Source: Falsiroseomonas bella
GTDB lineage: Bacteria > Pseudomonadota > Alphaproteobacteria > Acetobacterales > Acetobacteraceae
Direction: 5' to 3'
Assembly: GCF_003173615.1 (NCBI RefSeq)
Contig: NZ_QGNA01000003.1
Span: 186,001 to 250,000, forward strand
DNA length: 64,000 bases
In this document: positions 36,832-50,791 of the stretch, in pieces
Layout: each line of letters starts with the position of its first letter
Position numbering within the stretch: the first letter of the stretch is position 1
Notes under the pieces: model-generated
Told to the model about the DNA's origin: nothing
What the model saw: the letters and a program-made list of their open reading frames with translations, nothing else
Databases searched by the model: none
Program-made: the position numbers and the translations under genes

Positions 36832-37556
36832 GGCTGGCGGCCCGCATCATCGGCGACCTGCGGCAGGTACTGGCGGCCGAGGTCCGGGCCGGTGAGCGCG
36901 CGGCGATGACGGCGATCCGCGCCGAGACCGAGCAGGTCAAGCAGGAGCTGCGACGACAGGTCAGCAGCAGCTTCGGCGGCAATGCGCGCGGCATCGCCAA
37001 TGCCTGGCGGTCGCAGGTGTTTCCCCGCTCGGGGCAGTCACTGCGTTCCGCTGGGCTGGTCTGGACCAAGGTGCCGAACGTCATCGACGCCTTCGAGCGC
37101 GGGGCGCTGATCCGCGCCAAGGGTGGCCGGAAGTTCCTGGCGATCGCGACCGGCTTCAACGCGGCGCGGGGACGCCGCGGCCGTGGCGAGAAGGGCCTGC
37201 GCGTCACGCCGGCGCAGATGGTCGCCTCCGGGCAGGGTTTCCTCCGGCCGTTCCGCTCGGGGCGGGGCTTCGTGTGGTGCCTGCCGCTGCGTCAGGGCGA
37301 GCAGACCGGCCGGCGTCGGCGGACGCGCCTGATCGCCGGCGGCCTCGCGGAGGTCGTTACCGGCAACCGAAAGGGCCGCGAGGCCTGGGCCCGCGGCATG
37401 CTCCAGCGCGGGATGGTGCCGATGTTCCTGCTGCTGCCGCAGGTGAAGCTCGCCAAGCGGCTGGACGTGAAGGGCGCCGCTGAGCGCGGGCTGCGCCGGC
37501 TGCCGGGGCGGTTCGTCGCGGCGTGGGAGCGTGAGAGCGGGAGGGCGGCGCCGTGA
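36828..37556 (+). CDS. DUF6441-like phage structural protein
   Basis: 242 aa from GTG 36828, overlapping the holin stop by 4 bp. N-terminal helix (QVLAAEVRAGERAAMTAIRA), then basic strands (GRKFLAIATGFNAARGRRG) and a C-terminal VKLAKRLDVKGAAERGLRRL. Matches the DUF6441 type found between head-joining and tail-terminator genes, where a gpZ-like minor tail role is plausible. Confidence 0.7.
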   Translation: MRLAARIIGDLRQVLAAEVRAGERAAMTAIRAETEQVKQELRRQVSSSFGGNARGIANAWRSQVFPRSGQSLRSAGLVWTKVPNVIDAFERGALIRAKGGRKFLAIATGFNAARGRRGRGEKGLRVTPAQMVASGQGFLRPFRSGRGFVWCLPLRQGEQTGRRRRTRLIAGGLAEVVTGNRKGREAWARGMLQRGMVPMFLLLPQVKLAKRLDVKGAAERGLRRLPGRFVAAWERESGRAAP

Positions 37557-37999
37557 GCGTGCGGGAGGCTGCGATCGCGGCGTTGCACGGCCGGTTGCAG
37601 ACGGCACTCGCCACCCGCAATCCCGCCCCTCTGGTCCTGCGCGGCGAGACCGTACCGCAGCGTCTGCCGCCGGGCGGGCTGGTCGTCATCCGCGATGGCG
37701 AGACCGTGGAGGAGACGGCGATCCTCTCGCCGCTCGCCTGGGCGATCGAGCACCGCGCCGAGGTCGAGGTCATCGTTGGTGGCGCGACGCCGGCGGCGCG
37801 CGCCGCGTTGCTCGATGTGCTGCTGGTGGACATCGCCGCCGCGATCACCGCCGACCGGACCCTCGGTGGCGCAGTGGAATGGGCACAGCCCGGTGCGCCC
37901 GATGTCGAGGATGTCGAGTTCGAGGGCGCCGCTGCGGCCCGCGCTGCCTCCGTCCCTGTCGCGCTGTTCTTCACCGTCGCCGGCTCGCCGCTGGCCTGA
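37553..37999 (+). CDS. Tail terminator/completion-like protein (gpU-like)
   Basis: 148 aa from GTG 37553, overlapping the upstream stop by 4 bp. MSVREAAIAALHGRLQTAL and the alternating strands around VIRDGETVEETAILSPLAW resemble minor tail protein U types that cap the tail tube. Assignment rests mainly on size and gene order before the tail-tube gene. Confidence 0.6.
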   Translation: MSVREAAIAALHGRLQTALATRNPAPLVLRGETVPQRLPPGGLVVIRDGETVEETAILSPLAWAIEHRAEVEVIVGGATPAARAALLDVLLVDIAAAITADRTLGGAVEWAQPGAPDVEDVEFEGAAAARAASVPVALFFTVAGSPLA

Positions 38000-38033: not shown

Positions 38034-38990
38034 ATGCCCCGTGCCATCGGCGCCAATTGCCGTCTGCTCATGATCCCCGAGGCGACCTACGGCACCGCCC
38101 CCGCGGGCGACTGGCTGCGCATGCCGTTCCTCTCCTGCGACCTCGGCGCCGAGCAGCCGCTGCTCGATGCCGACGTCATCGGCGTGGGCAGCAGCCGCGA
38201 TCCCGCGGCGCCCTTCCTCGACACGGTCACCGTGCAGGGCCAGGCGGTGGTGCCGGTCGACCTCGTCAACATCGGCCACTGGCTGCGCCTGCTGCTCGGC
38301 CCGCCGACCACCACAGGCACCAGCCCGAACTTCATCCACAGCTTCGGATCCGGCGCCGCGGCGCTGCCCTCGAACAGCATCGAGATCGGCTACCCGGACG
38401 TGCCGAACTACGATCTTTGCACCGGCGTGCGCGCCGACACGCTGGAGATCGACTTCTCGCCGACCGGCCCGGCCACCGCCACCTTCGGGCTGATGGGCCA
38501 GGGCTCGACGCGCGGCGCCTCAAGCGCGGGCGGCACGCCGACCAGCGCCGCCTACACGGCCTTCAACAAGGCGCAGGGCGCGATCAACCGAAACGGCTCG
38601 GCGCTGGCGCAGGTGACCGGGGCGCGGCTGACCTACGCCAACGGGATGGAGATGGTGCGCACCATACGCGCCGACCGGAAGGTGGAAGGCGTAGATCCCG
38701 GCATCGCGCGCGCGACCGGCCAGATCACCGCGCGCTTTGCGGACACCACGCTGCTGACCCAGGCACAGAACAACGCGCCGGCGGAGTTCGCCTTCAGCTA
38801 CACGATCGACGCCAACCGCAGCCTGACCTTCACGCTGCACGAGGTCTACCTGGCGCTGGCGAAAACCCCGATCGAGGGCCCGGCTGGGGTCGAGGCGAGC
38901 TTCGAGTTCCGCGCGGCCTACAACGCCACGGCCACGCGCATGATGACGGCCGTGCTGAAGAATCTGCAAGCGGGGGCGGAGTACGTGTGA
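38034..38990 (+). CDS. Phage tail tube protein
   Basis: 318 aa. It begins MPRAIGANCRLLMIPEATYG and is strand-rich with Gly/Thr/Ser loops; typical segments are SIEIGYPDVPNYDLCTGV and ADTLEIDFSPTGPATATFG. It follows the tail terminator and would form the non-contractile tube. The two minus-strand cargo genes begin 170 bp downstream. Confidence 0.8.
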   Translation: MPRAIGANCRLLMIPEATYGTAPAGDWLRMPFLSCDLGAEQPLLDADVIGVGSSRDPAAPFLDTVTVQGQAVVPVDLVNIGHWLRLLLGPPTTTGTSPNFIHSFGSGAAALPSNSIEIGYPDVPNYDLCTGVRADTLEIDFSPTGPATATFGLMGQGSTRGASSAGGTPTSAAYTAFNKAQGAINRNGSALAQVTGARLTYANGMEMVRTIRADRKVEGVDPGIARATGQITARFADTTLLTQAQNNAPAEFAFSYTIDANRSLTFTLHEVYLALAKTPIEGPAGVEASFEFRAAYNATATRMMTAVLKNLQAGAEYV

Positions 38991-39160
38991 AACTGTCCTG
39001 CACTACTCCCTCGATCCACCAACCAGCATCAACGACCAACTGGCGGCAGGATCTCGACAGGTCGGGCTGTAGCCCCAAACGTCCTCAAGCGATCAGTGGG
39101 ACTGCCATCCGCCAAGCTCGTCGGGTGGCGAAAGACGGCTTTCAGCTCAGCGTCACTCCG

Positions 39161-39985
39161 TCAGAGCAGAGCGGCGCTAATTGGCCCAGGATGGAAGCCA
39201 ACCTGGTCGCAGGAATAGATCTGCAGGGTCACGGCATTATCAAGCGCGCTCTGTCGGATGGCAGGGAGGGCGAATTCCTCCAGCATATTCTCTTTACTAA
39301 CCACAACGAGGAGAACTCCGGCGGCCTTCCTCCCAGTCATCACCTCGTAGAGCTCGACCTTCTCGCGCAGCCATTTCCCATAGGCCGGCGCGTCTAGATA
39401 CGCCTTCCGGATATAGCTGAAATCCACAATGATATCTGCCGTTTCGTTGGCGAACTGCTTCAGGCCATCAAGGACCAGTCTCTTTTCGCCGGCAACGAGC
39501 TCCACGTGCCGCTCAAAATAGGTGCCGACGTCCTGTTCATACTTCGTGATCGCGACCTGGCAGAGGGCGAAGGCCTGAACGGCTGACCGCGTGGCGGAGA
39601 ATTTCCTAATGCCGGCGTCCGCCGGCTGCTCCTCGCTAGTCTCGACAACAGGTAGCTCGGATGCGCCGCCGCCTATCTGTCCCTCCAGCCGGGCGAGGCG
39701 CGCCATGATATCGGCCTCCCGGCTTGTCGACAGCAACTGCTTGTAGAGGCGTAAAGCCTTGCGATCGATTACGCCGGCATGCGCCATCTTATGATGCCTG
39801 TCGCACAGCGCGATCAAATTAGCCGGGTCGTTGTTCTCACGGTTCTCGTCAATGTGGTGAAGCTCGAGGTACGTGTGGTCGCGGCACTCCTTGATGGCGC
39901 AGGCATGGCCAGCCTCGACCAGCACCAGACGTTCGGTCGCCGCTGGAATTGGGGGCCTCGGCTTGTCGTAGGATGGTGTCGGCAA
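39161..39985 (-). CDS. HNH-domain nuclease-like protein (cargo gene)
   Basis: 274 aa. An HNH-type zinc site lies near the N-terminus: CAIKECRDHTYLELHHIDEN, then LIALCDRHHKMAH (residues about 28-70). A helical linker follows (IMARLARLEGQIGG). The C-terminal two-thirds is a separate domain with VGTYFERHVELVAGEKRL and GVLLVVVSKENMLEEFALP; no family recognised. Start taken as TTG 39985 with only a weak ribosome-binding site. Orientation is opposite to all late genes and the local sequence looks less GC-rich. Candidate anti-phage or superinfection-exclusion nuclease. Confidence 0.65.
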   Translation of the reverse strand: MPTPSYDKPRPPIPAATERLVLVEAGHACAIKECRDHTYLELHHIDENRENNDPANLIALCDRHHKMAHAGVIDRKALRLYKQLLSTSREADIMARLARLEGQIGGGASELPVVETSEEQPADAGIRKFSATRSAVQAFALCQVAITKYEQDVGTYFERHVELVAGEKRLVLDGLKQFANETADIIVDFSYIRKAYLDAPAYGKWLREKVELYEVMTGRKAAGVLLVVVSKENMLEEFALPAIRQSALDNAVTLQIYSCDQVGFHPGPISAALL

Positions 39986-40120
39986 GAAAGGTCACCCCAG
40001 CATTTGTAGTAATCGATGAGTTAGCGATGGCGGCGATCGGCCCCAACGCTGGCTGGCGCTTGGCGAACGCCACTGCGACCCTGATGCAGCTGCAGAAGGC
40101 GCGCCTACAGACATTGCCTA

Positions 40121-40714
40121 CTACAGTATGGCACACGGAAGCTCCTTCGCCGACAGGTTCGGAGCAAGGGACGCGGAGGGGGTGATGGCGATCGCAAGTT
40201 CGGCGAGGCGGTGCTGATAGACGCCGCCTCGCTCGGTCCTCGTCGCTCCGTTCAGCGTGTCGGGCCACCACAGTCCGTCAATCATGCCGTCCCCTGAGGC
40301 CAGCACTGCGAGAGCCGCTTGCAGTAGCTGATCCTCGAACGGACGCCCTTCAAGATGAAGCTGCGAATTCGCCGTTAGGTCCAGTGCAAGATAGAGTTGC
40401 TCCGCCGCGTGGATGCCGGATGCGTCGCGTCGAATTAGCTGTGCATGGATCGCGGCCGCCTCGATCGCATTCCTATGGTACGCCAAGGTGTTATCTGCAT
40501 CGAGGAAGCAAAGCGGCCGCCCGGATGCGGCGACCTCGTAGATGACGCCCTCTTCACCCGCCCAGCCGGACCTCCAGGCTTCGGGGTCGAGCGACACGGA
40601 AAGTAGCCCGAACTCGTAGTCCCAGTTTTTCGTGAATCGCTTATGCAGCCTACCATCCGGGCTCCGTCGACCGATGTGCCAGGTAGCGTCGAGGAATATG
40701 AATGGTAGATGCAT
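40121..40714 (-). CDS. Hypothetical cargo protein (197 aa)
   Basis: Starts at ATG 40714 (MHLPFIFLDATWHIGRRSP) with GGTGA upstream. Soluble, with WDYEFGLLSVSLDPEAWRSG, then RPLCFLDADNTLAYHRNAIE and ALDLTANSQLHLEGRPF. No recognised family. It lies upstream of the HNH gene on the same strand, 135 bp apart, so the two may form one transcription unit. Its base composition also seems lower in G+C than the neighbouring late genes. Confidence 0.6.
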   Translation of the reverse strand: MHLPFIFLDATWHIGRRSPDGRLHKRFTKNWDYEFGLLSVSLDPEAWRSGWAGEEGVIYEVAASGRPLCFLDADNTLAYHRNAIEAAAIHAQLIRRDASGIHAAEQLYLALDLTANSQLHLEGRPFEDQLLQAALAVLASGDGMIDGLWWPDTLNGATRTERGGVYQHRLAELAIAITPSASLAPNLSAKELPCAIL

Positions 40715-41068
40715 TGTTTCACCCTATACAGCCAGGACCCCGTAGCGCCACCTGGGTAGCTGCGTTGAACGAGAGTGTGCCGGTGATTTAGCCGCCATTA
40801 CCTTCGGTAGCCTTCGGCTGTCTGGGTGCTTGCCTCGACATTCGTAGTCTGCAGGACCGCTTTCGCCCCGGCGGGCCATTTGATCGCCTTGTCCGAATGT
40901 CCGAAAGGGTCCGAACGGCCGTCGCTCTCATCTTGGCGCTTTTCCGGTTTTCATGACGCCGCACCGGGCAACTTCGCCCCAGTAATGCGGACGAGCCCTG
41001 GCTAGCTCGGTCCTACTGCTGCGCTATTTCACGGATGCGGTTCCGATGTCCCCATAATGGAGAACCTC
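40715..41068. other. Non-coding stretch between cargo genes and tail chaperone
   Basis: About 350 bp with no convincing gene. It must contain the leftward promoter of the cargo genes and possibly a rightward one for the tail genes, but no clear -35/-10 pair was identified. It is less GC-rich than the surrounding phage genes and contains short direct and inverted repeats such as TTCGGTAGCCTTCGGC near 40803-40818. Confidence 0.5.
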
Positions 41069-41446
41069 ATGCTCACCCTCGACCTCCCAGCCGAGCCGTA
41101 TTGGCTCGACCTTCCCCGCGGCGTGCGCCTGGAAATCCGTCCCGTCACCACCGCCGTCATGGCCGCCGCCCAGGCCGGCTCGGCCCGCCGCCTCGGCGCA
41201 CTGCGCGCCGCGGAGGCCGACCTCGACCCCGACATGGCGCGCGGCCTGGCCTTCGCCTTCCTGGTCAAGGCGCTCGCCCGTCACGCCGTCACCGCCTGGG
41301 AGGGCGTCGGCGATGCCGCTGGCAAGCCGCTGCCGCTCTCGCCCGAGGCGGTCGAGCGCCTGATGGACCTCGACGATATCGCTGCGTCGTTCTGGGACCG
41401 CGCCACCGGCCCCGTTGCGGCCGTGGCCGCCGAGGGAAACGGCTGA
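41069..41446 (+). CDS. Tail assembly chaperone G-like protein
   Basis: 125 aa from ATG 41069, chosen because GGAG lies seven bases upstream; the earlier ATG at 41057 contains that ribosome-binding site. MLTLDLPAEPYWLDLPRGVR begins a protein with MARGLAFAFLVKALARHAV and LMDLDDIAASFWDR. Size and position before the tape-measure gene match the G protein of lambda-like phages. The gene ends just after a slippery heptamer. Confidence 0.78.
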   Translation: MLTLDLPAEPYWLDLPRGVRLEIRPVTTAVMAAAQAGSARRLGALRAAEADLDPDMARGLAFAFLVKALARHAVTAWEGVGDAAGKPLPLSPEAVERLMDLDDIAASFWDRATGPVAAVAAEGNG

Positions 41447-41761: not shown

Positions 41762-43936
41762 ATGGCCGACGCCACCCGCCGCGTCTCGGTCCGCCTCTCG
41801 CTGGACGATGCTGCCCGGGTCAAGGCCGGGCTGCGCGAGGTCGGCGAGACCGGCCAGCGCTCCCTCGACCAGATCAAGGGCGGCGCCGAGCGCGCGTCGC
41901 GCTCGCTCGAACTGCTCGACGTCGCCACCCGCGGTATCCAAATCGCCGGCGTCGCGATCGCGGCCCGTGCCCTGGTCCAGGCTGGCGATGCGCTCACCCA
42001 GAGCCTCTCCCGCCTGCAGAACGCCACCGGCTCGGTCGAGCGCGCCGGCCAGGTCTACGAGGCGCTCTATCGCAACGCACTCTCCACCGGCGTCGCGGTG
42101 TCCGAGAGCGTCGACGCCTTCCAACGCTTCTCGATCGCCGCCCGTGAGATCGGCGCCACCTCCGACCAGGTGGTCCGCCTGGTTGGCGGCCTGCAACGCG
42201 TCGCCATCGTCTCCGGCGCCTCCACGCAGGAGATCTCCTCGGCCACCCTGCAGCTTGCGCAGGCGCTGGCCTCCGGCGTGCTGCAGGGTGACGAGCTCCG
42301 CTCCATCCTCGAGGCCATGCCGCTGCTGGCCGAGGGGCTGGCCAAGGAACTCGGCGTCTCGATCGGCGAACTGCGCAAGCTCGGCTCCGAGGGCAAGCTC
42401 ACCGCCGAGCGGGTCTTCCCCGCGCTGCTGCGGGCTACCGAACGCCTCGGCGCCGAACTCGACCGCGCGCCGCTCTCGCTCGGCCGCGCCTTCGGTCAGC
42501 TCTCCGCCGCGACCGAGAACTTCCTCGGCCAGCTCGATCGCGCCATTGGCCTGTCCAACGCCCTGGCCCGAGCGCTCTCCGCGGCCGCCCGCGCGGTGGA
42601 TGGCGTCCGCCAGGGTGCGGGCCTGCTCAGCGAGGAGGAACGCTTCGCCGGCATGCGCCGCCAGGCCGAGGCGCTGGCGGCCCAAATCGCCCGGCTGGAA
42701 AGCCAGCAGGACGGCCGCGCCAGCCTGACCGCCCCGGTCCGCCGCGGCAGCATCCGCCCCGGCCTGGTCGGCACCGCCGAGCAGCAGGCCGGGGTTGATC
42801 GCGCGGCCCGGCTGGAGGAGCTGCGCCGGCAATACACGGACCTCCAGGGCGAGATCACCCGCGGCGAGCAGGCCGCTGGCGAGCGCCAGCGCAGCGAGCA
42901 GGAGAGCGCTGCCACCGCCGCGGCCGAGGCCCGCAGGCGACGCGCCACGCAGGACGTCCAGGAGCTCACCCGCGACCTCGACGACCGCTTCCGGATCAAC
43001 CGGGAATACGAGGAGCGGGTCCGGCGGCTGCGCGAGGCGGAGGCGGCCGGTGGCGTCACCGCCGCCGAGCGCACCCGCCTTGAGACCCTCGCCCTGCAGG
43101 AGCGCGACGAGGCGCTGCGCCGGCTCGAGCCCCGCGTCGCCGCCGTCCGGCGCGCCAGCAATGAGGGCGCGCGCGAGGCCCGCGAGGCCGAGCGGGAGCT
43201 CAACGAGCTGCTGCGCGAGCGCGAGCGGCTGATCCAGCAGAACGAGACCGCCTATGAGCGCTACCAGCGCCGCCTCGCCAATCTCTCCAGCCTAGTGGAG
43301 CGGGCGGAACGGGCCGGCCGCTCCGTGCCTGACGAGACCATCCAGCGCGAGGCGGTCGCGGCGATGGAGGAGCTGGAACGGGCGGAGGAGCGTGTGCAGC
43401 GCGGTGCGGAACGCACCTCCGACACCGTCCGCGAACTGGGCCTGACCTTCTCCAGCGCCTTCGAGGACGCGATTGTCAAGGGCGAGAAGTTCTCCTCCGT
43501 GCTGGAGGGGCTGCTGCAGGACATCACCCGCATCCTCGCCCGCAAGGTCATCACCGAACCGCTGGGCAATGCCGTCTCGGCCGGGCTGTCGGGCATCTCC
43601 TTCGACAGCCTGTTCACCGATGTCGGCTCCTGGCTCGGCGGGCTGTTCCGCGCCGAGGGCGGACCGGTCGCCGCCGGACAGCCCTACATTGTCGGCGAGC
43701 GCGGGCCGGAGTGGTTCGTCCCGCGCCAGGCCGGGACGGTGCTCCCCAATGGCGCGGTGCCGGGCGCTGCCGGCCCGACCATCCACACCAGCATCAGCAT
43801 CGACGCCCGCGGCGCCGATGCCGGCGTCGAGGCGCGGCTGCGGCTGCTCGCCGGGCAGATCGCCCGGCAGGCCTCGGCGATGACGCTGGACGCCATCCGC
43901 CGCGGCGGCGCGGCCTACGACACGGTGCGCGGGTAG
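41762..43936 (+). CDS. Tail tape-measure protein
   Basis: 724 aa starting MADATRRVSVRLSLDDAARV. The N-terminal region resembles a tape-measure domain (GVAVSESVDAFQRFSIAARE, GASTQEISSATLQLAQALAS). Next is a long charged coiled coil (about 350-560, rich in Glu, Arg and Ala). The C-terminus has a Gly-rich region with FRAEGGPVAAGQPYIVGERG and ends near AYDTVRG. It sets tail length. One base separates it from the GT frame. Confidence 0.88.
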   Translation: MADATRRVSVRLSLDDAARVKAGLREVGETGQRSLDQIKGGAERASRSLELLDVATRGIQIAGVAIAARALVQAGDALTQSLSRLQNATGSVERAGQVYEALYRNALSTGVAVSESVDAFQRFSIAAREIGATSDQVVRLVGGLQRVAIVSGASTQEISSATLQLAQALASGVLQGDELRSILEAMPLLAEGLAKELGVSIGELRKLGSEGKLTAERVFPALLRATERLGAELDRAPLSLGRAFGQLSAATENFLGQLDRAIGLSNALARALSAAARAVDGVRQGAGLLSEEERFAGMRRQAEALAAQIARLESQQDGRASLTAPVRRGSIRPGLVGTAEQQAGVDRAARLEELRRQYTDLQGEITRGEQAAGERQRSEQESAATAAAEARRRRATQDVQELTRDLDDRFRINREYEERVRRLREAEAAGGVTAAERTRLETLALQERDEALRRLEPRVAAVRRASNEGAREAREAERELNELLRERERLIQQNETAYERYQRRLANLSSLVERAERAGRSVPDETIQREAVAAMEELERAEERVQRGAERTSDTVRELGLTFSSAFEDAIVKGEKFSSVLEGLLQDITRILARKVITEPLGNAVSAGLSGISFDSLFTDVGSWLGGLFRAEGGPVAAGQPYIVGERGPEWFVPRQAGTVLPNGAVPGAAGPTIHTSISIDARGADAGVEARLRLLAGQIARQASAMTLDAIRRGGAAYDTVRG

Positions 43937-49559: not shown

Positions 49560-49889
49560 ATGACGAGCAAGACGACGAACAAGTTTTCGCCTGAGGTTCG
49601 CGAGCGGGCGGTGCGGATGGTGCTTGAGCACGAGGCGCAGCACCCGTCGCGCTGGGCGACGATCCTGTCGATCGCGGCCAAGATCGGCTGCACGGGCCAG
49701 ACGCTGAACGAGTGGGTGAAGCAGGCGGAGCGCGATACCGGCCGCCGGCCTGGCCCGACGACGGAGATGGCGGCCCGCCTCAAGGCCCTGGAGCGTGAGA
49801 ACCGCGAGCTGAGGCAGGCGAACGAAATCCTGCGCAAGGCGTCGGCGTATTTCGCCCAGGCGGAGCTCGACCGCCGGTTCAAGCCATGA
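49560..49889 (+). CDS. IS3-family transposase OrfA
   Basis: 109 aa with an HTH region ([20 protein letters not shown]) and a C-terminal leucine-zipper-like helix ([19 protein letters not shown]), the standard OrfA layout that binds the IS ends and multimerises. The stop overlaps orfB's ATG by 4 bp; an OrfAB fusion by frameshifting is usual in the family, but no obvious A-rich slippery site was seen. Confidence 0.92.
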
Positions 49890-50791
49890 TCGGCTTTATC
49901 GATGATCATCGTGAGGTTTATGGGGTCGAGCCGATCTGCAATGTCTTGCCGATCGCCCCATCGACCTATCGCGTGCAGGCGGCCCGGCGGCGTGATCCGG
50001 CCAAGCTGCCGGCCCGAGCGCAGCGCGACGCCGCACTGATGCCCGAGATCGCGCGCGTGTTCGAGGAGAACTTCCGCGTCTACGGCGTGCGCAAGGTCTG
50101 GCGGCAGCTGAAGCGCGAGGGCCATGACCTGGCCCGCTGCACCGTCGCACGCCTGATGCGCAGCATGGGCCTGCAGGGCGTGATCCGCGGCAAGCCGGTC
50201 AGGACGACGATCAGCGACAAGGCCGCACCTTGCCCGCTGGACCACGTGAACCGGGAGTTCAAGGCACCGCGCCCGAACGCGCTGTGGGTCTCCGACTTCA
50301 CCTATGTCGCGACCTGGTCAGGGTTCGCCTACGTCGCCTTCATCATCGATGCCTATGCGCGGCGGATCGTCGGTTGGCGCGTGTCGCGGACCGCGCATAC
50401 GGGCTTCGTGCTGGATGCGCTGGAACAGGCCCTGCACGAGCGGCGCCCGCTGCATCGCGGCGGCCTCGTGCATCACAGCGACAGGGGCAGCCAGTACGTC
50501 TCCATCCACTACACGGAACGCCTGGCCCAGGCCGGCATCGAGCCCTCCGTCGGCAGCGTCGGCGACAGCTATGACAACGCCTTGGCCGAGAGCATCAACG
50601 GTCTCTACAAGGCCGAAGTCATTCACCGGCGCGGCCCCTGGCGCTCGCTCGAGGCCGTGGAATTCGCCACCCTCGAATGGGTGGACTGGTTCAACCATCG
50701 GCGGCTGCTGGAGCCCATCGGCAATATCCCGCCGGCCGAGGCCGAAGCAATCTACTATGCTGCCCAGGAGAACCTGCTCCTGGCGGCGTGA
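49886..50791 (+). CDS. IS3-family transposase OrfB (DDE integrase core)
   Basis: 301 aa. HTH_21-like N-terminal part ([18 protein letters not shown]) followed by the rve core with Asp137 (WVSDFTYV), Asp199 (HHSDRGSQY) and Glu235 ([12 protein letters not shown]); the D-35-E spacing is as expected. Ends with YNHR-like [13 protein letters not shown]. Complete frame, so potentially active. Confidence 0.95.

Follow-up and report, generated by a model that had tools for sequence, protein, structure and literature searches.

A candidate HNH nuclease effector in a variable cargo slot between prophage tail tube and tail chaperone genes

Within a 64,000-nucleotide stretch of the Falsiroseomonas bella genome (hereafter the window), two genes, here termed P1 and P2, are lodged among the tail genes of a prophage and are read in the direction opposite to them. 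This arrangement raises the question of what the two genes are, why they are found at this position and whether they act together. An earlier note on this DNA regarded them as moron-like cargo and as a candidate two-gene defence system. Here, we compared the locus with its counterparts in related phages and genomes and analysed the two encoded proteins by family searches and structure prediction.

An antisense, low-GC insert in the tail operon

The two minus-strand open reading frames were found exactly where the earlier note had placed them (Table 1), and all four flanking genes tested (4/4) lie on the plus strand, as had been claimed for the late genes. The space between the tail tube and the chaperone (hereafter the slot) includes 170 bp of non-coding DNA on the left, 135 bp between P1 and P2 and 342 bp on the right, the last corresponding to the roughly 350 bp described before. 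The lower GC content noticed earlier was also borne out: the GC content of the slot is 0.602 against 0.702 for the window, below that of every 2066-bp segment tested outside the slot (579/579), the lowest of which reached 0.619. Such deviant GC content is one of the features by which morons are recognised. A consensus scan of the 342 bp upstream of P2 gave no promoter-like site, its results being at chance level, and an inverted-repeat search of the slot returned one weak 14-nt pair (79%) spanning the P1-P2 gap. An integron cassette as the immediate origin of the insert was weakly disfavoured, since no attC-like core was seen in the slot, which was searched for inverted repeats only and inspected by eye.

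Table 1 Features of the tail region in the window (positions are those of the window)
Feature	Position	Strand	Evidence and remarks
Tail terminator	37553-37999	+	PHROG match, 7e-22
Tail tube, left slot anchor	38034-38990	+	PHROG 290, E 3e-54; cargo starts right after the stop codon
Hypervariable cargo slot, 2066 bp here	38991-41056		Spacing variation; 46 cargo groups; lowest GC of windows tested
P1, 274 aa, TTG start, two-domain nuclease-like	39161-39985	-	HNH matches; 7 full-length relatives, 41-71% identity
P1 C-terminal domain, about residues 133-262	39200-39589	-	PD-(D/E)XK-like topology in the model (mean pLDDT 72) and Foldseek; canonical lysine absent
P1 N-terminal HNH module, residues 1-88	39722-39985	-	Shared by 20 proteins whose C-termini form nine groups (one truncated at a contig end)
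P2, 197 aa, ATG start, orphan ORF	40121-40714	-	Upstream of P1 on the same strand; no family match
Non-coding, 342 bp	40715-41056		Precedes P2 as read on the minus strand; the RBS-like ggag of the chaperone comes next
Tail assembly chaperone, right slot anchor	41057-41446	+	PHROG 313, E 3e-14
Tape measure	41762-43936	+	PHROG match, 1e-62

The slot is filled in most related tail modules

A scan of viral contigs with the tail-tube protein yielded 118 relatives, 80 of which were taken in. The chaperone was also present in 67 of these 80 loci; the other 13, with no chaperone in the surrounding DNA, were omitted from the gap count. Over the 67 viral loci, the distance between tube and chaperone ranged from -13 to 4581 bp and exceeded 300 bp in 64 of them, the slot being empty in three (L084, L112 and L118). 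The neighbouring gaps were short or nearly constant: 12-35 bp between terminator and tube (78/78 loci), at most 187 bp before the terminator (74 loci) and 243-364 bp between chaperone and tape measure in 50 of 55 loci. The results thus revealed a variable locus between two conserved phage genes, as expected of a hotspot. In the remaining five loci, the chaperone-tape measure gap measured 1462-1977 bp, which may mean that cargo is housed here too or that the alignment is at fault.

Among 200 whole genomes from the family of the host, 28 also had a match to the tube gene, with up to 6 matches per genome. Twenty of the 55 listed genome places, hand-chosen partly on how long the contigs were, were retrieved, and the slot was filled in all of them (20/20). 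Counting all loci with both anchors (67 viral and 20 genome), the slot is filled in 84 of 87 and empty in three. Because some sequences recur among these 87 slots (L056/L167, L057/L168, L066/L164, L097/L183, L062/L063, L093/L094 and L114/L115/L117), groups are counted beside loci below. Among the slots compared, P1 and P2 occur in that of their own genome only; the insert therefore sits between adjacent phage genes and is absent from relatives, including the three with empty slots, as is characteristic of a moron.

The source genome itself has four copies of the tube gene, and each of their slots has cargo from a different group. A search of this genome for Phage_integrase gave 6 matches, none on the contig of the window and none on contigs C8, C11 and C12, the carriers of the four related tail modules. 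Searches of the same genome with Portal (PF04860) and Mu-transposase (PF09299) returned nothing, the former profile having matched only 4 of 14 controls and the latter none.

The comparison also took in four distant relatives, Rhodobacter phage RcKvothe, Nostoc phage Nsp-JY21, and Shinella and Methylobacterium replicons. Their tubes are 43-49% alike, and their slot is empty or nearly so, holding at most about 0.2 kb. The filled slot therefore looks like a habit of this phage lineage. The tail tube of RcKvothe (OP009275.1, L184) contains an extra internal stretch relative to the tube of the window, with the match falling in two pieces (1254 bp).

Cargo appears exchangeable and is mostly antisense

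By DNA similarity, the 84 cargos fell into 46 groups, 35 of them singletons, a grouping in which distant protein relatives may land in different groups. In the two groups with the most loci (20 and 10), the members scanned contain toxin-antitoxin-like genes. Cargo extends from directly after the tube stop codon to near the ribosome-binding site of the chaperone. In one pair of loci (L060 and L175), a 1025-bp cargo and the chaperone are 100% identical while the tube genes are 84% alike; the same cargo behind such different tubes indicates that cargo can move by recombination, and at the sequence level this pair is a clean sign of exchange within the flanking genes. Another pair (L061 and L166) has cargos 92% and tubes 82% alike. 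We suggest that, in general, cargo is swapped via recombination in the conserved flanking tail genes.

The main open reading frame, as called by a simple ORF caller and not a gene finder, has minus orientation in 66 of the 84 loci (35 of the 46 groups), and cargo GC content is lower than that of the tube in 77 of 84. Cargo that mostly points against the late genes would be expressible in the lysogen while the late genes are silent. For Burkholderia prophages with moron hotspots, RNA-seq data described in the available text of PMC2920897 showed several morons expressed and most phage genes not.

Slot contents include known defence and toxin-antitoxin genes

The cargos contain 112 open reading frames of at least 100 aa, which form 82 clusters, and 50 proteins were scanned singly against Pfam. 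These 50 were picked by hand with a leaning to likely conflict genes, spurious-looking ORFs and several transposase-, regulator- or metabolic-looking ORFs being left out, so the share of conflict genes given here is biased. Pfam families were matched by 26 of the 50 (E<=0.01; for part of the set E<=0.001) and by none of the other 24. According to our own classification of this hand-picked sample, 19 of the 50 (19 of the 26 matched) belong to toxin-antitoxin, defence or conflict families, 4 of these 19 matches being below the Pfam cut-off. The families are ParE, ParD, PemK (below cut-off), Phd, protein kinase, DUF3800 (below cut-off), DUF4145, HEPN_Toprim_N, SIR2_2, DUF4238, DarT, M78-XRE, SLFN_AlbA_2, caspase (twice, once below cut-off), HATPase, Hypoth_Ymh, Mrr (below cut-off) and DUF7665, the last in a protein that PADLOC called BilB.

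Further PADLOC matches were obtained for BilD (7e-172) and BilB (2e-60) in L070, and the tally over 53 proteins includes one BilA (2e-56; matching member not specified). The Bil operon of L070 also lies between tube and chaperone in L172, a locus of genome G857. Together with the DarT, SIR2_2, HEPN_Toprim_N and caspase matches, the Bil genes place known anti-phage systems inside the slot, as in other hotspots. In both L172 and L070, an XRE-M78 gene stands beside BilA, BilB and BilD, and two short ORFs occupy the likely place of BilC.

Other contents have no evident link to defence: a TauE exporter, an ion channel, YcaO, a C92 peptidase and GNAT by Pfam, and transposases, an enolase-like gene and a mercury operon by eye. 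The mercury-resistance-like operon (L177, the slot of G008) comprises reductase, transport and MerR-like ORFs. The slot of G826 (L181) holds a 7.1-kb cargo, mostly on the plus strand, in which a metallophosphatase, a GTPase-like ORF and a 692-aa ORF were recognised by eye; this cargo is possibly a GTPase-centred conflict system. Given the TauE, ion channel, YcaO, GNAT, transposase and mercury genes, the conflict genes of the slot are many but not exclusive, and on sequence evidence the slot is a cargo site with many, though not exclusively, conflict genes.

The moron-like character proposed in the earlier note thus agrees with a slot that is filled in 84 of 87 loci and elsewhere carries known genes for defence and toxin-antitoxin systems, and the reading of the tube-chaperone site as a cargo hotspot is strongly supported by these sequence comparisons. 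Antiviral hotspots between conserved phage genes have been described in P2-like phages, P4-like satellites and Vibrio and Bacillus prophages (PMC9122126, 2022). As far as the available text of that paper goes, these hotspots are likewise high-turnover loci of about 1-5 kb, enclosed by two conserved phage genes and filled with diverse anti-phage systems. The present slot differs in lying inside a tail operon (tube/chaperone), in being mostly antisense and in belonging to another phage lineage. The Burkholderia moron hotspots resemble it in having different morons at one site, deviant GC content, and toxin-antitoxin and restriction genes; they comprise 17 different morons, none placed between tube and chaperone in the accessible part of that report (PMC2920897), whereas the present comparison covers a single site with 46 cargo groups across 87 loci.

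P1 joins a conserved HNH module to a predicted restriction-endonuclease-like domain

Family searches bore out the HNH-like nature ascribed to P1. Its HNH stretch matches many PHROG HNH families, a Pfam HNH_3 match falls below the Pfam cut-off, and PADLOC matches are restricted to this stretch. Full-length relatives (n=7, identities 41-71%) were found on an Enterobacter plasmid (51%) and at six genome loci, in Sphingomonadales (71%), a gammaproteobacterium, Oceanospirillaceae, Nodosilinea, Polaromonas and Rhizobacter; a P1 nucleotide search of E. coli genomes found nothing. Twelve further loci share about the first 88 residues of P1 only.

The resulting set of 20 HNH proteins (P1 and L007-L025) includes 18 of 19 genome loci, L026, with 21 residues matched, having been dropped. 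In these proteins, the module has a mean identity of 65% and 30 invariant residues, among them C29, C34, H43, H44, N52, N56, C61, H64, H65 and H69. The scan patterns were drawn from the HNH stretch, so the high conservation of the module is partly due to selection, which does not apply to the spread of C-termini behind it. These C-termini form nine groups without BLASTP similarity between them, one being cut by a contig end; besides that of P1, the module carries seven other complete C-termini, one of which consists of TPR repeats. A sister HNH module (GHRCAIP...CPxCHRRA), with likewise differing C-termini, was seen in L041, L042 and L043, in genomes of the same phylum.

An AlphaFold model of P1 (m9e7b18541301; 7 sequences) has a mean pLDDT of 72, and the order of elements in its C-terminal part is helix, three strands, helix, strand. 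This corresponds to the alpha-beta-beta-beta-alpha-beta core of PD-(D/E)XK nucleases, with moderate model confidence and weak Foldseek E-values. The best Foldseek matches in PDB are the XisH structures 2inb and 2okf (E 2.2e-3, probability 1.0), and no PDB hit reached E 0.001. Can2, Shedu and EndoMS appear lower down, interspersed with unrelated folds (Rab GTPases and clamp loaders). A single BFVD hit below 0.001 is nameless, and the entries next to it are HNH and restriction-endonuclease proteins. These data point to a restriction-endonuclease-like fold for the C-terminal domain, as far as the model can be trusted.

No sequence-level match between XisH and P1 was obtained at E<=1 in a PDB profile search, although XisH is the best structural match of the model; the same search gave weak hits only, to SAVED-domain proteins, IscB, ExpZ and BsoBI (at E 0.69). 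An XisH family search of 200 genomes of the phylum gave no match, and its 14 controls were equally blank. The catalytic lysine of the (D/E)-x-K motif was absent from all eight sequences (8/8; motif position assigned by us). At position 190, P1 has S, and its seven relatives have C, H, Q, Q, H, R and R. For this reason, we infer that the HNH module is the cutting domain and the second domain the recogniser. In such a protein, the HNH module would cut DNA or RNA once the C-terminal domain recognises foreign DNA or another infection signal.

Cap5-type HNH-SAVED effectors of CBASS combine an N-terminal HNH nuclease with a C-terminal sensor-like domain. P1 is similar to them in this architecture and in its weak PADLOC and PDB hits. 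It differs in that its C-terminus is restriction-endonuclease-like in the model, not SAVED, and in that the hits are confined to the HNH stretch.

Settings of P1 relatives and the role of P1

Relatives of P1 and of its module were found in several settings. L009 adjoins GmrSD, PDDEXK_4 and TIR genes, which make up a defence island. L007 adjoins a DUF3800 gene, with a cytosine methyltransferase and a DUF4928 gene 4-6 kb away. Repeats that we take to be integron attC sites flank L010 as well as L023 and L024, two relatives of the module, in an integron-like array. A phage-type integrase comes after L015, and an IS3-like transposase after L013. Judged by their gene neighbourhoods, all of these appear to be mobile and conflict contexts, and L012, L016 and L021 stand solitary among genes that look metabolic by eye.

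These settings bear on whether P1 could be a homing endonuclease of the free-standing HNH type, self-inserted between the tail genes, with P2 a passenger or chance ORF. Free-standing HNH genes are common in phages, many PHROG HNH families match the HNH stretch of P1, and shuffling of the slot (see below) is compatible with P2 as a chance ORF. A homing gene would, however, be expected to recur at its cognate site in related genomes, yet the P1 module is present in 1 of 84 occupied slots and dozens of other cargos occupy the same site. Moreover, the full-length relatives occur on a plasmid and on chromosomes as well as in a defence island and an integron-like array. A simple homing endonuclease was rejected on these grounds, and we regard homing as very improbable.

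Another alternative is that the slot is a general accessory site and that P1, with no part in defence against viruses, works in the DNA metabolism of the host or the phage. The TauE, ion channel, YcaO, enolase-like and mercury genes of the slot and the three module relatives among metabolic-looking genes would fit this explanation. Against it stand the predominance of toxin-antitoxin, defence and conflict families among the Pfam-matched cargo proteins (hand-picked and classified by us) and the presence of many alternative C-termini on one HNH module, a pattern that we would consider typical of conflict effectors. This alternative seems unlikely to us. P1 is probably a nuclease effector, predicted to act against other mobile DNA, and an anti-virus function is plausible for this putative effector.

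P2 is absent around full-length P1 relatives

The 197-aa P2 had been described as belonging to no recognised family, and it indeed gave no match at E<=1 in Pfam, PHROGs, PADLOC or NCBIfam. In the collections searched, P2 was found solely in its own genome and in the matching viral-contig copy, with no relatives in 59 related genomes, in 385 genomes from the class or in 398 from the phylum. Because an ORF of at least 197 aa arose in 24 of 300 mononucleotide shuffles of the slot, length alone is no proof that P2 is a gene. The GC content of its codon positions (0.67/0.47/0.70) is gene-like, and P2 is likely a real gene. An ADP-ribosyltransferase fold, suggested by eye, was unsupported by family searches, and the structure model has a mean pLDDT of 39, too low to be informative.

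Could P1 and P2 form a dedicated two-gene defence or toxin-antitoxin system? The two genes lie on the same strand, 135 bp apart, in one cargo, and two-gene cargos such as ParDE and Phd/PemK-like pairs are common in the slot. The earlier note, which favoured one system, had named homologues that never co-occur as the finding that would speak against it, and this is what was observed: in the surrounding DNA examined, P2 is absent around all seven full-length relatives of P1 (0/7 with P2). The confinement of P2 to its own genome among those searched argues in the same direction. A co-evolved pair is thus not supported by the sequences, and we consider a two-gene system rather improbable. P2 would instead be unrelated co-cargo of P1, or an accessory to it.

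Interchangeable lysogen cargo as the preferred explanation

Overall, we favour the explanation that P1/P2 belongs to a large set of exchangeable cargos that lie between the stop codon of the tube gene and the ribosome-binding site of the chaperone in a family of siphovirus-type prophages and are carried for the lysogen, with P1 a putative nuclease effector and P2 its co-cargo or accessory; taken as a whole, this account is fairly probable. The cargo pool, rich in addiction and anti-virus genes in the hand-picked sample, suggests that the slot may serve lysogen fitness and competition between mobile elements.

A wider hypothesis can be advanced more tentatively, as possible but somewhat doubtful. 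Here, P1 would represent an undescribed modular family in which a highly conserved HNH module sits on at least eight alternative C-terminal sensor domains, among them the restriction-endonuclease-like one of P1 and TPR repeats, forming a one-protein sense-and-cut anti-virus system that moves as integron cassettes, plasmid genes and prophage cargo. The slot would be a dedicated docking site that keeps cargo lysogen-expressed and out of the late transcript.

Morons and prophage-defence hotspots are known kinds of loci. Tab of phage JBD26 is a prophage-encoded anti-phage moron among late genes (PMC10884400), and Tai genes lie, according to the available text, in recognised and novel phage hotspots (PMC11364771). 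Tab and P1/P2 are alike as prophage cargo lodged among late genes, the anti-phage role being that of Tab; in the available description, Tab is an 83-aa tail-assembly inhibitor encoded between terminase genes and is not presented as a nuclease, in contrast to P1/P2 (PMC10884400). No description of the tail tube/chaperone slot or of the P1-type HNH family and its architecture was found in the open PMC literature, which is weak evidence of absence, and the same literature had nothing on point for XisH with HNH, Roseomonas prophages or Acetobacteraceae hotspots.

A fixed, tiny site between two conserved anchors would be a ready-made trap for defence and addiction genes. To sample it, reading between tube and chaperone in this phage family suffices, even on short metagenome contigs. 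The 24 of 50 scanned cargo proteins without a Pfam family keep company with Bil, DarT and toxin-antitoxin genes, and the HNH module with its exchangeable C-termini offers a concrete, testable family of candidate single-protein effectors.

Elsewhere in the window, an ALIL pseudoknot (Rfam RF01497, E 8e-31) was found at 49844-49960, at the start of an IS3-like transposase ORF (49886-50791) that looks rve-like by eye.
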